This document shows positions 494 through 64,000 of a stretch of DNA of 64,000 nt, in pieces (the first letter of the stretch is position 1; every line of letters begins with the position of its first letter). Both the position numbers and the translations under genes were made by a program. The DNA comes from Halichondria panicea (taxonomy: Eukaryota > Porifera > Demospongiae > Suberitida > Halichondriidae). Location: the NCBI RefSeq assembly GCF_963675165.1, contig NC_087380.1, forward strand, positions 3,401,803-3,465,802, written 5' to 3'. Under the pieces are notes generated by a model. It was given only the letters and a program-made list of their open reading frames with translations, did no database searches and was not told the DNA's origin.

Positions 494-2251
494 GAGGAGA
501 TCGCTGAGCGAAGGATTATTTCTCCTGACACCGTCCTGAGCCACCTGGCCGGTGCCTTGGAGGCTGGCTACATTGTGGATTACAGAAGAGGTGAGATTGT
601 TTTGCTATCTTTGCAGACTCTCATAAAATTATGGCTTAATTTTTCTCTTCTGTATGATTGTGTACAGACATGTAGTGCGCATGTACTCATTAACAGTCTT
701 CCACATCCACTGTTTCTTGTGTGATTTGCTTTAGTGCTAACTTTATGAATGTTGCAGCTGGTCTATCTGAAGATATGGAAGAGCAAATCACACGTGCCAT
801 CAGGAATGAACCCATCTTCTCAGGTATAGTGTAGTTAGAGTGGGATCAGCTACGCAGTACGGTTTTTAATATGTTTTGTGTGTAAAAATTCAGTTTAGCT
901 CTAAACGGTGGCCTAAATGTTCTTTCTGCTCTTAATTCTTAGTGTAGTATGTAGTTTAATGGTTTATGCAGACATTTCCTAATGAGGGAGCATCGTGTTC
1001 TATTTGAAGTAAGTTATTAGCCTATACAAATATGAATGTCAGTTGTAAGACTACAAAATCTCCGAATAAGTGGCTCCCTCTTATATAAAATACATATACC
1101 AATGTATACAGCTATGAATTAAGGTTACTATTAAAGATTACTATTAAAGACCGGCAGTAATTTTAGCATTTTCAGAATTTCTCTGTTTTAGGGCACTAAA
1201 TTTTGTGAATTTGCCAGCAATTTAGCACAATATTTGTCAAAAGATGTATGTATAAATATGAGTTTTAAGGTTGAATGGAAAGAATGGAAAGTTTGGAGTC
1301 AGATATAGACTGGCTAGCTTACTCATAGCGTTTAATAGAAAAAAGAAAAACATTGAAATTCAAAGGTGGTTTTATTATATAATTTAGCGTTAAAAATTAG
1401 TTAAAAATTCGAAAAAAAATTGGTTCTCGTTTATAATAGGTAGCCTAGCTCCTTTTCCCCATAGACATAAGCAAGCTCCAATCCATCATGAAGCAGCTGC
1501 AAGAAACTGTTGACAAAGATGGCCTTTTAACCTATGGACACCTAAAGCTGACGATAGCGGTGATAACCGTTAAGACGGGGTTTATTCGTCCGGGGAAGAT
1601 ATCTGGAGTCCCCACTCACATGGCTAATGTTTCACCACCACAGGTACTATTATATCTAGGCTATAATACCTTTCAATTTTATTGTTAACGTATAGCGTCT
1701 GTATATATAGGGCAAATGCTGTGATACAAAATCTATACGAAAATAAAACTGAGATTTTTAACCTCGTTTGATTAATTATCAAGTGTGGTTTAACGTGTCA
1801 TATCTTGTAGGCAAAACTCACATATTTTACTTATAACCACCCACCCACCCCACCTACACACAACACACAGAGCTCCTCCATCGTAGCCTCTATAGCAGAC
1901 ACTCCTTCCTCTTCCTCACACTCGACCACAGTCACAGCTCCACTACCCATCTCACAGCCGACCACAGCCACGGCTCCACCACCCATCTCACAGCCGACCA
2001 CAGTCATGGCCATCTCACAGCTGACCACAGCCACACCTCCACCACCTATCTCACAGCCGACCACAGCCACAGCTCCACCACCCATCTCACAGCCAACCAG
2101 AGCCATGGCCATCTCACAGCCGACCACAGCCACAGCTCCACCATCCATCTCACAGCCAACCAGAGCCAAGGCTGGCAAGAGAAAACTGCCCGGAAATTTC
2201 GGATACACCTCTCGGTACAAACCAAAAACTAAGAACAAACGATTCTGGTAA
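494..2251 (+). CDS. WRN: Werner-type RecQ helicase (WRN-like), C-terminal exons only
   Basis: Four exons at 494-590, 758-823, 1465-1643 and 1811 (or 1871)-2251 splice in consistent phase and end at TAA 2249-2251. The product has the C-terminal helix-turn-helix seen at the end of WRN: EEIAERRIISPDTVLSHLAG, then AGLSEDMEEQITRAIRNEPI and DISKLQSIMKQLQE. In vertebrate WRN this region has the same pattern (IAESRILPLMTI..., AGLTPEVQ...IRNPP, DMSKISLIRM). The helicase, RQC and HRDC parts must lie upstream of the window. The last exon is mostly a tandem repeat coding for ISQPTTATAPPP units, followed by a basic tail (GKRKLPGNF...KPKTKNKRFW) that resembles the basic C-terminal region of WRN (nuclear-localisation type). 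The role by family is ATP-dependent DNA unwinding in replication and repair in the nucleus. The start of the last exon is uncertain because both acceptors keep the frame. A generic RecQ paralogue is the alternative. Confidence 0.82.
1921..2168 (+). repeat. in-frame coding minisatellite, 36-bp unit with 30-bp variants
   Basis: Tandem copies of a unit beginning 'ccatctcacagccgaccaca' code for I-S-Q-P-T-T-A-T-A-P-P-P, with shorter variants coding I-S-Q-P-T-R-A-M-A. All units are multiples of three, so the WRN-like frame stays open. The reverse strand is also open over this repeat by chance. Confidence 0.9.
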
Positions 2252-2600
2252 TTAAACAGCTTTCATATATTCATATACTCTTTTCTGACAACTAATGCGT
2301 TGGTTTATTATTACTCTTCCTTCATATTTTATCAATCCATATATGAACTGTATCTATAATTTATACAAAAACTTAAATTTATAGATCAACCTAAATTTAC
2401 GTCTCTTTTGTTCATAATTATGATTATTATTGCTCTTCCCCTATTTCTAATCATTAATTTATCATCCACGAATCATAACTGTATATATATACACAAACTT
2501 GAATTTATGAATGTACATCTCTCTTTGTTCATATACAATGTTTTTGAAATTATAATACTGATTAGAGTGTAAAGAAACCATAATCTCATAGTTACTGGGC
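2252..2600. other. AT-rich 3' flank of the WRN-like gene
   Basis: No ORF or RNA gene is seen. The stretch is rich in TATA and ATTAAT runs and probably includes the 3' untranslated region. Confidence 0.4.
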
Positions 2601-2664
2601 TAGCCTCGATTCCAGGCCGCTCTCAATTGAGAAAGAGGGGCTGGAATCGAGGCTATTACTGGGC
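2592..2664. mobile_element. 55-bp hairpin mini-MITE with perfect 9-bp target duplication
   Basis: The element at 2601-2655 is a foldback: 'tagcctcgattccaggcc' at 2601-2618 pairs with 'ggctggaatcgaggcta' at 2639-2655. It is flanked on both sides by 'ttactgggc' (2592-2600 and 2656-2664), an exact 9-bp direct repeat. The same termini recur at 35420-35482 and 63508-63574. It has no coding capacity. A 9-bp duplication is typical of Mutator-like transposition, but the family assignment is inference. Confidence 0.85.
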
Positions 2665-3190
2665 TATCAAGGAAGGAAGCAGACCAGAGGATCGAGAAGA
2701 GATAATTTATATCAACACCAAGATTTAAAAATTAATGTGTATTTTACTGTGTACGCTGCATGTGCTGGAGTTCGCTCCTGATGAATATGGTGCATGGTTA
2801 TGTTGCTTTTGGAATGGGTAAACTATAGCCATATCATACAGAATAACATAATAAATACAGAATAATGATTGTCCTACTTATAATTTTGAGAACAAATAAT
2901 TATATCTACTTCATATCTCACTCACTATAATTATAACAAACAGTTTAAAGATCACAAATCAGTACGCAGAGTCAGGAGTGCACTCCAGTCCTGGCGGAGT
3001 GTAGATCGATATACAATTAGCTAAATAAAGGAAATGGGACAACTGCAGTGCGCTCTCGTGTAAATTGACTGATGTTATATAATTGTGATGATGTCCAGGG
3101 GACCCCAACACTATGACATCGTGTTACTAGTGAGCATAAAATTAATGCAATTTTGCAATTTTGAGCGCTTCACAAAGTAAATCGCAAATA
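2665..3190. other. intergenic, nothing recognised
   Basis: AT-rich sequence with no supported gene. A non-conserved stretch near 2975-3010 has slightly higher GC but no ORF of note. Confidence 0.4.
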
Positions 3191-3946
3191 CAGTAGACTC
3201 TCGTTAATCCGGCCACCCTTGGGACCATGCAGCTTGGCCGGAATAGCGAGGTGGCCGTACTTCAGATAATTAGCCGCGGCTTAAAAACGACCTTACCTCA
3301 AATATAATCACTGATTTGCGGTTCTTGTCTCGAGGATAATGAAAGATAATGAATCATTCTGCTCTCTATTGAAGTGTAATCCAATTTTATTTACTAAACC
3401 ACACCCAAAACATCATATCCGGCCGTAATACAAAAACGTTATTCGGGACAGCCAGCACTGGCCGGTAAACGGAATAGAGAGTGGCCGTACTTCAGGGTAG
3501 ATGGGCGTGCCCGTCCCCGGCCATAAAAATGGGGGGACAGGTTTCAGCCCTATCTAGCATTTGTTCTGCTGTTCCCGTACTAACTATGAATATAGTTAAT
3601 ATTAGCCGCGCCTCTAACCACAGAGCTCAGCTTGCTGCAGAGAAGGGGAGGGGCTGGGAAGCCAAGGAATGCATTACGTAAGAACTATACAATCTGATTG
3701 GTGCTGAAATATATTACGTAAGCAGTCTGCAATCTGATTGGTGCTGCATGATTTTCTGCAGCAGAACGAATGCTAGATAGGGCTGAAACCCGTCCCCCCA
3801 TTTTTATGGCTGGGGACGGGCACGCCCATCTAACTTCAGGGTGAGTTTTGTTCAGTAAACATAGAGGTAGCATTCCGTGCCAAGCCAAATGGCCGGTATA
3901 TCGAGGTGGCCGTACTTCAGAGAGCCGGAATAGCGAGAGTCTACTG
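3191..3946. mobile_element. TA-flanked pogo/Tigger-like MITE (outer element)
   Basis: Starts CAGTAGACTCTCGTTAATCC and ends with the inverted counterpart (rc CAGTAGACTCTCGCTATTCC). A TA dinucleotide lies on each side (3189-3190 and 3947-3948). Terminal CAGTAGACTCTCG with a TA duplication is the pattern of pogo/Tigger-class Tc1-mariner derivatives. Internal copies of 'tggccgtacttcag' occur near both ends. It carries no transposase. A second foldback is inserted in it at 3498-3832. Confidence 0.85.
3489..3841. mobile_element. 335-bp foldback MITE nested in the outer MITE, 9-bp target duplication
   Basis: The element at 3498-3832 begins TAGATGGGCGTGCCCGTCCC and ends with its inverse complement. 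Terminal inverted repeats run about 75-80 bp, to roughly 3574 and 3759. The flanking 'acttcaggg' is repeated exactly at 3489-3497 and 3833-3841. The centre holds two related 'gcaatctgattggtgctg' type segments. The nested order shows it inserted after the outer element. Confidence 0.88.
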
Positions 3947-6602: not shown

Positions 6603-7975
6603 TTTTTTTTTTTTTTCTTATTGCAAGTGAGAAGACAAAAGACAAAAGACAAAACAAAAAAAACAACAAAAACATGTGACATAATTTTATAAAGTTCCTG
6701 GGTGAAAACACATGTTTCAGACCGATAGCACCCGGCCTTCTTGAGTTGCTAGGTCAATAGTGCCAGTGTCTAAGGCCTTCCATGGTGTGGTGGTGGTGAA
6801 TGACTTCCTAGAGCCTCTGATGCACATAATCTCTGATCTTATGAGGGGCAAATTTAGCCTACACCTCATCCAATTCAGAGTTGTGCTGTATGTTTTGTCA
6901 TGTTTCTCTGCCAGCATTAAAGCTAGTTTCTTGTAGACAATATCTGCAGCCGGACCCATATCTCCAGCAGCAGAGAAAACCAAAGGCGTAAACGATCCAT
7001 GTTCGACTTCTCTTACACGCTGTTCATAAGCTCTCTTCTTCTCCATCTCGTTTCTTCTGTAGCTCTGGGCCATGGTGGAGCGGCGATAGGTAGGTGCGTA
7101 CGGGTTGAAGACCCTGACATCAAAAAATGCACTCTGTCTATCGTTGCTCCAGAAGCTCTCCAGGGCCACAACATCAAGGCGAGCCCCATCCTCGCGGTTG
7201 GTTGTCCTAAGTTGGAACTGCTCTTCCGTCACAGGCTGTAAGGTTGGTTCAATACCCACATCTGGACATACTTCGCTCATAAGATTTGCTGTGATGTTGC
7301 GTATTTCATTATGTCTTATTGTTGGAAATCCTCCCCTAGAGCAGCTGAGTGCATGCTCTACTGTGAAGTGAAGTCCACAGACACAGTGAGAGGGTAGGTT
7401 CTGAGGCCGCCAGCCGTACCTGAGGCAAAGAGCATCTCTGAAGGCTCCCTTGTGTAGCATGAAACCATGCTCTGCAATAGGCAGCGCTGTTATCCAGCTT
7501 GAGGTACCTTTCTCTGAGCATATTCCAACCATTTTTTCAAATTGTTTGGTAGTTCTTCATTTAGCTCACTTGCTGTCCTGGCTTCCATCTGTCGGCGGAA
7601 TTTTTTGGCATTGTTCCTCAGTCTGGCTTGCTCTTGCTTCATTGTAGGTTCGTATATATCGGATTGGTCAAGTATCAGGCTGACTAGTGGTGCTGAGATT
7701 GACATGCTCATCGTGAACTGACCAGGGCTTGTTTCACACGGGTTTGCTATACCAAGTCCCCCATGGCGGGCTGGGAGTGCCATTATAAAAAACTGCCATA
7801 CAAAACTAGGGTGACGCAAGCGCCATGGGGCAAGCGACGCATCCAACTCTGCTGAAAGATATTGTGCAAATGACACCACATCTTGTGGCAGGTTGATGAC
7901 ATGGTCTGCGTATTCATACTGTCCAAGTGGTAATCGATAGATGGACATTGTTGGCATGACTGCAGATTATAGATA
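6603..7975 (-). mobile_element. 5'-truncated non-LTR retrotransposon with restriction-like endonuclease domain, copy 1
   Basis: On the minus strand a reading frame from 7957 runs through SIYRLPLGQYEYADHVINL..., breaks by a frameshift near 7500 (WLEYAQRK followed in another frame by GTSSWITALPIAEHG), and ends at 6717. The second part has a Cys/His cluster (CVCGLHFTVEHALSC) followed by GARLDVVA...FFDVRVFNP, the spacing of a PD-(D/E)xK endonuclease core (D...DxR). A poly-T run at 6603-6616 is the poly-A tail of a minus-strand insertion. No reverse transcriptase is present in this copy. A near-identical copy is at 52711-53592. Naming it to an R2/CRE-like or other clade would need the full element. 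Confidence 0.75.
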
Positions 7976-34053: not shown

Positions 34054-37000
34054 CTACTGTGCAGTGAACTCAGGAATGGAGTAATATCCGTTTTCAGGAT
34101 GCACTTGTAGCTGAGAATACTCACTTGCACCTAAACCAACGGCCTCAGCATAATTAGGAGGGGGTTGGGAGTAATGACCAGTCGGGTACATCGAGAGCCT
34201 CACGCCGTTGCTGTACTCAGGTTGTGGAGGGGAGTAGACCACTTGCATGGGGCTGGAGGGGTCGGAGCTGTACATATGGTCGTCTGAAGTTGGTTGCTCG
34301 GATACAAACACGCCTTGAGAGACTACGAGATGGTGAGCAGGATTCCTAGTGGGCGAAGCTTGAGACATGTGATGTACAGTTGCCAAGGGAGCTGCGTGAG
34401 ACAGCTGATAACCATTCTGTGAGATATTGTGGGAGTGAGAGAGCGTATTTGGGTAGGAGGTTAAGAGGGGTGGAGGTGGGTGGTTCGGTGCAAACACAGA
34501 GTTCATTGGGTGTCCACTTGACAATGGGTATTGGGCGAGGTGTGGATTAGGCTCCGTTTTGATTGGTCTGAGTTTCTCACGGGGAGGTGGTTTGTTAGTA
34601 ATCGATTTCCTTGGTTCAGAGACAGTTAGCGATTGTACTGTGAGGCAGTTACCTAGCTGTTCAGTACCGTCTTCTTGCCGAGGCTGTGTGTGATTGGATG
34701 CATGGGTATAAAGTTATAATATTGGCCACTATGTACTTGTAACAAAAATTGAATGGTTTGTAATTTAATTTGCCTACACGTATATAATTATGCTAAAATT
34801 AATACTCATTAAGGCATGCGCATTGCGGTACGCTATATATAGGAGGAACAAAGAGCAGTAACACAGTTACTAATATTCACCTTCTTCCGTTCTTGCAGAT
34901 GTGACTTTGTATGTTTCCTCAGAGAGCTTGGGTCAGTGTAGCGTTTAGTACAGCCAGGGTGAGTGCACACATAGGGCTTCTGTATGACAACCAGCGTGCA
35001 AGCATTATATAAAATGCAGAATGACTTTATCAGCTATATCTATATTGCTCTGTATTTTTAAGGACAAATCAGTGCAGCTAAAACGATCAACATTGTAAGC
35101 ACATAATACATGCGTGAACCGGGTACTTGGATGAGTGCAGCTTATTACATATAGACGTACCTGGTCAATGTGAGTCTTCTGGTGCTTGGACCTGTCGGAT
35201 GAGTTAGAAAATGATTTGTTGCAACCAAAGAACTGGCAGGTGTACGGCTTCTCTCCCGTATGAGTGCGGAGATGGATCTTAAGATTCTCCAGACGAGAGA
35301 ACGCTTTGCAGCATCCTGGATACTGCAACAGGAATATTAATTTAGCAACAATTTAATAATAAAAGCTTCCACTATAACTATAAAAAGTACCGTGCACACA
35401 TACATAGTAGACATTGGTATAGCCTCGGTCCCAGGCCGATTTTTCTCCGAAAGGGAGAAAAATACGACCTGGGACGAGGCTAATATTGGTATATGGATAT
35501 TCATTAGCAGTATTTCCAACAGTAATTGGCCAGTTTAAGTATTCATTGCAACAACTATGGTGGCCAATTAAATCCTACTTAGAATACAGGTGCAGTGTGT
35601 TTACTCCTAGGGTAGTATTCATTGCTGCTATAGACCAAGGCTGCAACTATTCATTGAGAAAGCCGCTGTCCGTCTATAGCTCATAGTTGAAGTGCTGGTA
35701 GGGAGCCGAGTATGAGACTTTTCCTGCATAAATATAGCTAATACTCTCTACTATAATTATAGGCAATAATTATATCTACTACATTTTTGACAACTATACT
35801 ATACTACATGTATGAGTGCTTATCCGATGTTACTCTATATACATGCATGAGGTGGGATCAAGTATATGATTGGGTTGAAACTATAGAAAATTGAGTAGTA
35901 TACTGAGGAGTAGAGATTGTATAGGCATACAGGAGCCCATAAATAGAGAGACCTCTCTATTTATGGGCTCCTGGTATATATATAGAATACATATGTGGCA
36001 CAGCAGTTTGAGTTGGTTCTCTAGTTTACCACAATCCACTTGATCATTGTGTGTTCAGATTACTATCTTGGTTACACCCAATCTGATAAAGCTTGCATGC
36101 ATTACACAGCATAAACCATGATATGCCAGTGTCATGAAAACTTTTCTACAAAATCAGGCTGGGGATTGAGGCCCCTATAGTGCTGTTTTTTGATTCACTG
36201 TGTTCACTTGGCATGATCTAATAACTGTAAGCTGGGTACCTAACAAAAATTCCAAGTGCACAAACATACACCTTGTATGCATGTGTGCGTGCACTTATTC
36301 AAAGGTGACAATATGACAGTGTGCATGAATGAACTACCGAACCTTAGGTCACACCTCAGGCAACAATAACAGCTGCCCATGATTAGGGTAAAAGTGTAAA
36401 GGGTAAACAGATTCATGTCACTTTTAGTCTAGCGAAGACCATGGACATTGGTATAGTAACACAATCCGTTTATGGAGGGAAACGGTCAATATACACAATT
36501 TTCACGCTTGACCAAATTGTCAAGTACTGCGTTATTGTAAACAAGTCGCTAGCTTTACCACAAAAATCCTAGACAGGTCATCAAGCCCTCTCTCATGCAT
36601 GATTTCCTTCAACTGGTAAACACCAAGCTCTCTTAAGCTTCCATTGAGCAGGTGCAACTCCCTTGCCACTGCTTATATAATCGTACACCTATAACATATG
36701 ACTATACGTACATACATAAGAGCCAGATGCTATCGTAAAAGGATATAATCCAAAATACGAAGTAGCTAATTGCTCGGTAAAAGCTGGGAAGTAAAACAGG
36801 CAGAATGCATGGGTGGCATTGTTTTGGATAAGGTTACACAAGGCCATTAATGTCTAAGAGAGACGAATAAAACAAAGGCAACGAATCACAAACACAGAAT
36901 TCCAGCTCAAGTGGAGAGAAGCACAATTCAGTTAGGGTTCTCAAAAGTTCAATTCAAAAAATGTGAAGCATCGTCAACTATTTAAAGGTCATATTGCGTA

Positions 37001-40452: not shown

Positions 40453-45847
<5,395 letters not shown>

Positions 45848-57570: not shown

Positions 57571-63136
<5,566 letters not shown>

Positions 63137-63325: not shown

Positions 63326-64000
63326 TTAATGGCATAGAGATAATGAAGCATAGATCTACGTTATAGTAGAATAAGATTATTACACAACTTTCAGCAACTA
63401 CTAACTATAGGTAGATCTATAGTGGGTATATTTCGAGGGTATAAAATGTTCGCTGATTAAGCATGCACCGCCAATAATTTAATACTGCATGCATGCATGC
63501 GCAAAAGTAGCCTCGGTCCCAGGCCGATTTTTCTAGCGTTCAGTTGGAGACGGATCGGCCTGGGGTCAAGGCTAGCGCAAAAGCTGCTATTCTGCGAAAA
63601 TTAAATCCACGAAAACCTTTCTATAAACGGTCTTCGAAATATACCTGCTATACGGTGTACAAAATCGATCTCACAACTAGATTTACATGCAAGCAAGTTT
63701 GTTCGATACATTGATCCAGAGAATGGCTTTCTATTTGTGCTATACCCTCACCTGTAATGAAATTCAAGAATTGGCAGAAGGTTTTATATTATCTAGCTTC
63801 GTTCCCAGGTTCGTTTTTTCTCTATTGTATATAACGCTAGTTACACGTCACCACTAATTGATCAGCAGGGGTAAGATATATACATACAATAACATACAGC
63901 CCCAGGAGCTAGGTGCTAGGCATATACACAGTTTTCAAGCCTTTTCATTTGTCAAAGAAAGTAAGGCAATAGATCAGATACCAGGCCGTATTTTAATCGG
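63326..64000. other. terminal stretch, repeats only
   Basis: A degenerate TACCGTATAGCGGGTA-type MITE (about 63420-63657) contains the hairpin at 63508-63574. No ORF is supported to the end of the window. Confidence 0.5.
63499..63583. mobile_element. 67-bp hairpin mini-MITE, perfect 9-bp target duplication
   Basis: The element 63508-63574 starts tagcctcggtcccaggccg and ends cggcctggggtcaaggcta. 'gcgcaaaag' flanks it exactly at 63499-63507 and 63575-63583. It has inserted into a TACCGTATAG-type MITE, like the half copy inside the MITE at 43215-43638. Confidence 0.9.

Follow-up and report, generated by a model that had tools for sequence, protein, structure and literature searches.

The window analysed here, i.e., the whole stretch of 64,000 nucleotides of Halichondria panicea DNA (G000:C4:3401803-3465802), contains three short hairpins of 55, 63 and 67 bp, none of them assigned to a strand, each bordered by 9-bp flanking repeats as the initial annotation had described. 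Copy 1 (2601..2655) is a class A remnant of 55 bp enclosed between two exact 9-bp target duplications, TTACTGGGC, at 2592..2600 and 2656..2664. It consists of about 35 bp of left end and 20 bp of right end, a division judged by eye because the script runs into letters common to the opposite end. Copy 2 (35420..35482), a remnant of class B type of 63 bp, lies between the 9-bp repeats ACATTGGTA (35411..35419) and ATATTGGTA (35483..35491), which differ by one mismatch (8/9); it is apparently made of two left ends joined together, both sides matching the class B left end over 25 bp, and it was left out of the breakpoint counts. Copy 3 (63508..63574), a class B remnant of 67 bp, associates 25 bp of left end with 42 bp of right end between exact 9-bp duplications, GCGCAAAAG, at 63499..63507 and 63575..63583, and sits within another repeat. 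This host is a different palindromic repeat, TTTCGAGGGTATAAATGTTCGCGG and its complement (window 63400-63700), which also occurs at 43233-43294 and 60662-60721.

At the very end of the window, the inner box (63981-63987) and the loop of a longer class C copy occupy 63981..64000 on the minus strand (L098, position 169), the tip of this copy falling outside the window, at what would be position 64016. Seven matches to the 18-bp terminus, at most 3 mismatches being allowed, are present in the window, versus 0.09 expected from shuffles. Two of the seven (43495-43512 and 63794-63811) are single, diverged terminus-like sequences for which a relaxed scan of the window found no partner end; the same scan gave a further terminus pair at 3271-3338, which has no duplication (3/9 bases) and is taken as a chance occurrence.

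The genome searched comprises 131.5 Mb distributed in 39 contigs, and the exact terminus TAGCCTCGGTCCCAGGCC occurs 153 times per strand genome-wide. Pairs of exact 8-bp termini were sought over total lengths of 16-101 and 120-150 bp, and were counted together with the duplicates carried within larger repeats; they amount to 156 at 16-39 bp, 980 at 40-70 bp, 314 at 71-101 bp, some of which are neighbouring copies or composites, and 70 at 120-150 bp, where many of the pairs among the matches listed also appear by eye as neighbouring copies or composites. The reversed-pattern control gave no pair in any length range searched. The shortest copy among the matches listed measures 25 bp. Many copies of a 50-bp hairpin occur at G000:C1, at about 1.2-2.4 Mb, and several of these share the same flank, so that they are carried by a larger local repeat and do not represent independent insertions.

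Target duplications were read in a sample composed of 50 copies of 25-39 bp among the matches listed for contigs 1-3, 30 of the 50 copies of 40-70 bp among the matches listed for contig 1 alone (the 20 omitted copies being mostly of the repeated 50-bp type), and the three window copies. These 83 insertions fall into 59 groups according to their flanks, an imperfect grouping since L031 and L056 look related to other groups. The tabulation of flanks proposed in the initial annotation shows that the 9-bp repeat recurs: 35 of the 59 distinct insertions display it at 8 or 9 of 9 bases, all nine being conserved in 27, to which one insertion with an exact 10-mer and one with an exact 8-mer may be added, and the remaining 22 possess no duplication of 8-10 bp. 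Counted by exact duplications, the same 59 insertions consist of 27 with 9 bp, 1 with 10 bp, 1 with 8 bp and 30 with none. In the shuffled-flank control, matches of at least 8/9 were found in 16 of 11,590 pairings. Depending on the size of the copies, a 9-bp duplication accompanies 18/37 distinct insertions at 25-39 bp, 14/19 at 40-70 bp and 3/3 in the window.

Sites devoid of the element were recognized for two insertions. The joined flanks of copy 3 match 39 other places of the genome across the junction, out of 55 matches that also include two from the window and 14 short, partial ones; four of these places (L101-L104, 76-83% alike) were aligned and exhibit the copy 3 site without the element, with a single 9-mer region. 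Similarly, a 46-bp copy that lies inside a longer element (L002, 245-290) and shows an 8/9 duplication has its empty site in the relatives L001, L004-L009 and L012-L014, a set in which L006 overlaps L001 and for which one alignment was read. The paralogous empty sites of these two insertions, together with the recurrent 9-bp duplications, bear out the earlier view that the hairpins result from true DNA transposon insertions.

Longer copies share the termini of the hairpins. Copies of 548-785 bp carry 9-bp duplications (ACTATAATT, exact; AATTAAGCC/AATGAAGCC; AGTGAAACT, exact), and a helicase fragment from such a copy gave 150 scored matches in the genome. Two large coding copies, L015 and L017, were reached via far-apart helicase and ZAD matches. 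The first (L015, 877-6519) extends over 5,643 bp with the same termini and an exact 9-bp target duplication, GTGTTTACC, and the second (L017, 815-6906) over 6,092 bp with an exact 10-bp duplication, CCTCGCGCCC; L011 is also bordered by an exact 9-bp target duplication. In L015, DUF6589 is recognized in two ORFs (E 2.7e-31 and 1.9e-15) located on the same strand as a weak ZAD finger (E 3.9e-4, below the Pfam cut-off), and two ORFs of the opposite strand encode DEAD, Helicase_C and RecQ_Zn_bind domains that all exceed their cut-offs. In L010, the ZAD piece does pass the cut-off. L017 comprises ZAD and helicase matches and one DUF6589 match below cut-off, and L018, with one recognised terminus, contains DUF6589 and helicase domains. 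The helicase of the long copies also matches WRN and RecQ chains.

The DUF6589 profile has 92 matches in this genome and is called in none of 14 control genomes. Acidic motifs noticed by eye are common to the DUF6589 ORFs and would fit a DDE enzyme, and DUF6589 probably represents the transposase of the element. A phmmer search of one DUF6589 ORF against the PDB returned nothing at E up to 1, and two such ORFs compared with NCBIfam gave no match at E up to 0.1. Other DUF6589 matches, at G000:C3:3629098, C9:1650827 and C14:4797543, occur within open frames of 1,617-1,732 aa that perhaps belong to another kind of large element. In L017, an ORF located between the ZAD and DUF6589 parts (2653-3153) shows a weak, below-cut-off match to the Ulp1 protease (E 0.11). 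The ORFs of 300 and 222 aa found in L015 and L016, which are located on different contigs, differ by eye at few residues, which suggests a fairly recent movement. Finally, L013 (G000:C7:4542200-4550300) forms a large inverted repeat, whose ORFs at 557-1036 (+) and 7243-7719 (-) are almost the same and whose termini at 1777 and 6503 have flanks that mirror each other.

The ends of the long copies, among those listed, are built on one plan consisting of the 18-bp terminal repeat, a loop that varies with the class, and an inner box, GGCCTGG, subject to small variants. The distance from tip to inner box ranges from 29 to 56 bp in all but one of the ends listed: it reaches 37 and about 30 bp in class A, about 52 and 53 or 46 bp in class B, and 29 bp in class C and in the right end of L015. 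The exceptional end, in L012, measures 70 bp from tip to box and has a partly repeated loop. Between classes the inner box appears by eye less variable than the outer box, which suggests a protein-binding site rather than a hairpin kept for its pairing. All 74 inner boxes of the fetched loci have a terminus within 70 bp (74/74), a weak test since most of these loci were chosen by their termini.

In samples of classes A and B, to which the length-blind sampling applies, the short copies form a separate size class. The class A left 35-mer has 176 genome matches with at most 3 mismatches, and 67 of the 100 matches listed are exact. Among 40 of these 67 exact left ends that were fetched, 28 were read by eye as the start of a long copy and 9 as copies terminating inside 180 bp, the other 3 showing some different rearrangement. 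The nine short copies measure 52, 52, 54, 59, 63, 64, 67, 68 and 82 bp, the two 52-bp copies having common flanks. Adding L172 (67 bp), recovered via its right end, and copy 1 of the window (55 bp) brings the distinct short copies of class A to ten, with nine different lengths; 6/10 possess the duplication at 8-9 of 9 bases. When 70 exact right ends were paired with the left ends listed, 100 in number, a procedure blind to short copies with less than 26 bp of right end, 28 both-end copies resulted: five measure 59-82 bp, 23 measure 492-2,681 bp, and no length falls in between. In class B, ends whose copy length was unknown beforehand were fetched from contigs 2 and 3 (20 of the 24 counted as unknown among those listed); they gave 13 copies of 76-109 bp, 12 of them distinct, 3 copies of 511-572 bp, two of which have a common duplication, and 4 ends without a recognised second end. 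A duplication (9-mer at 8-9 or 10-mer at 9-10 bases) borders 10/12 of the distinct short class B copies, the second ends of L156 and L164 being accepted on sequence, without duplication.

The breakpoints of the short copies were located by comparison with ten reference ends, ambiguous cases being decided by eye. In classes A and B, and partly on visual assignment, no short copy clearly extends past the inner box and several stop exactly there, the apparent excess of up to 11 letters reported by the script consisting of letters common to the opposite terminus; no reference corresponds to the right end of L146, which was not counted. Class A left ends stop at 37, the box edge, in 7/10 and at 35 in 3/10, values of which the inner limit alone is informative because all of these copies except L172 and copy 1 were selected by their first 35 bp. 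Class A right ends stop at the inner-box edge in 3/10 (p 0.03 versus an even spread, post hoc and weak), and class B ends do so in 4/12 on the left (p 3e-4, also post hoc) and 4/11 on the right. L107 and L172, at different sites, both associate 37 and 30 bp, and L151 of class B associates 52 and 46 bp. Several sites whose flanks are distinct carry class C remnants of 47 or 58-59 bp, the 58-59 bp type (29+29) being present at four (L070 group, L077, L090 and L093). Where the two ends of a short copy meet, overlaps of 1-5 letters and fillers are seen. Judged by eye, about 20 bp beyond the inner box may be retained in C1:11388393 and C1:12965377, which are alike and perhaps derive from one event; C1:1498815 contains a long unrelated filler. 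In addition, one 25-bp sequence has five exact occurrences, and eight places carry it with one mismatch; the two exact copies with flanks read (L032 and L049) possess different duplications.

The differing junctions and lengths of the class A short copies, and the size gap that separates them from the long copies, give them the appearance of individually formed products. Accordingly, the part of the initial annotation that saw in the hairpins a family of short elements finds no support in class A, and the hairpins are mostly not one family multiplying as short units. In our judgement there is an even chance that they are donor-site scars, left upon excision by an AcademH-like cut-and-paste transposon. 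As we infer the cutting, unwinding and joining steps, cleavage of the leaving element would take place at the tip for one strand and close to the inner box for the other, the helicase encoded by the element would part the 29-56 bp located between the two cuts, and one strand would leave with the element as the other stays. After trimming and joining of the two tails that remain at the donor site, the target duplications would stand intact on either side of a scar of about 25-109 bp; the ends of the moving copy would be restored by repair. A more specific version, in which the transposase cuts at tip and inner box with an excision stagger of 29-56 nt, the strands are pulled apart by the element's own RecQ-type helicase and a scar able to form a hairpin stays behind at every departure, seems somewhat less likely than not. 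A stagger between tip and inner box would account for the unique trimmed joins between intact duplications, for the limit at the box and for the presence of a helicase.

Support for the donor-scar interpretation comes from the long copies, with their same termini, exact 9- or 10-bp duplications and encoded domains, from the duplications at 35/59 distinct insertions and the two insertions with empty sites, from the class A size gap, the preponderance of 76-109 bp copies among the class B ends, the nine lengths found among ten class A copies, the breakpoints at the inner-box edge and the edge-to-edge joins repeated at different sites, and from the 17-nt extensions that the P element produces by cutting inside its own repeat, as stated in the available part of PMC7776569. 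Against it stand the absence of a directly observed excision product, the lack, among the fetched loci, of paired duplicate sites of which one holds a long copy and its counterpart a short one, the 22/59 distinct sampled insertions without an 8-10 bp duplication, the two alike loci that perhaps run past the box, the filler of C1:1498815, the post hoc character of the edge tests, and the 25-mer found at five places with differing duplications, which could mean that short units move.

An alternative we consider unlikely is interrupted gap repair, in which flush cuts at the tips would be followed by copying of the ends from the sister chromatid, halted early, the short tracts being joined into internal deletions formed in place. 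Such a process is known in other cut-and-paste transposons and accounts for unique junctions, overlaps of 1-5 letters, fillers and intact duplications, and structure in the end could halt copying near the inner box. However, retained lengths including 100-490 bp would be expected, whereas none of the class A both-end copies falls between 82 and 492 bp, and the exact stops at the box edge require an added cause.

It also seems improbable that the hairpins are ultra-short mobile elements, a reading close to that of the initial annotation, produced by internal deletions and then moved and inserted by the transposase of the long copies. The 9-bp duplications of the distinct 25-39 and 40-70 bp copies, the exact 25-mer at five places, and the class C remnants repeated at distinct-flank sites speak for such elements. 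Nevertheless, nearly every class A short copy has its own junction, and the types that recur are those joined at favoured places (from one box edge to the other, or at a shared CGAG or GGCCTGG), which makes a repeated origin possible; movement of short units gives, moreover, no reason for the limit at the inner box.

A non-autonomous group of Mutator-like elements moved by a MULE transposase, the affiliation suggested in the initial annotation, agrees with the 9-bp duplication but is very improbable and largely refuted: long copies with the same termini, among them the coding one of 5.6 kb, carry genes for DUF6589 and a RecQ-type helicase, and the twelve ORFs or pieces scanned yielded no MULE domain. 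The hairpin shape and high copy number might recall a conserved structural RNA or protein-binding hairpin, a reading with next to no likelihood given the target duplications, the empty sites (decisive for copy 3), the continuity with protein-coding copies, the loops that differ between classes and the absence of any Rfam family at gathering score within the window.

If such staggered excision occurs, the short copies, roughly 1,450 in all, would in many cases belong to a fossil record of excisions from which the positions of the cuts can be read. An inner breakpoint common to independent remnants of two element classes would offer a readable trace of the cutting step and predicts cuts that can be assayed, and bears on how cutting occurs and why such DNA transposons carry a helicase. 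Tiny hairpins with good target duplications need not correspond to minimal mobile elements, which bears on MITE counts. DUF6589, named in no paper found in the one open-licence literature collection searched, gains a context as a likely transposase.

With respect to known systems, the AcademH lineage reportedly goes back to Kojima in 2020. According to the description given in a citing paper, as far as its available text goes, AcademH is a lineage of Academ DNA transposons that encodes a helicase and generates duplications of 9 or 10 bp, compared with 3 or 4 bp for AcademX (PMC10045372). The present element encodes a helicase (DEAD, Helicase_C and RecQ_Zn_bind in L015) and has duplications of 9 or 10 bp (9 in L015 and L011, 10 in L017), and an AcademH-like cut-and-paste DNA transposon fits better than Mutator. 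The likeness is drawn from helicase and duplication length; membership of Academ would also call for a DDD/E transposase, for which DUF6589 is the candidate here, so that we speak of likeness rather than of proven membership.

Kolobok transposons use TTAA as target duplication. KolobokH is a DNA transposon with a RecQ helicase, reported only from fungi in the accessible part of PMC9587614. The element shares the RecQ helicase but differs by duplications of 9-10 bp and varied sequence, for which KolobokH was rejected. The P element has a THAP-type transposase and an 8-bp duplication; here, no THAP match was found in the ORFs scanned and the exact duplications are mostly of 9 bp. Cleavage of one strand 17 bp inside the P element end, leaving 17-nt extensions (PMC7776569, available part), resembles the cleavage proposed here in that one strand is cut well inside the terminal repeat and end sequence can stay at the donor site. 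The element is not a member of this group, however: its duplications measure 9-10 bp, its proteins are different and the stagger proposed for it is 29-56 nt. Mutator elements share the 9-bp duplication and differ by the proteins of the long copies, which is why they were rejected. The short copies here share with non-autonomous MITEs the lack of coding sequence, the terminal repeats and the target duplications; the copies of 0.5-0.8 kb look like ordinary MITEs, whereas the copies of 25-109 bp, in classes A and B, were mostly not amplified as units.
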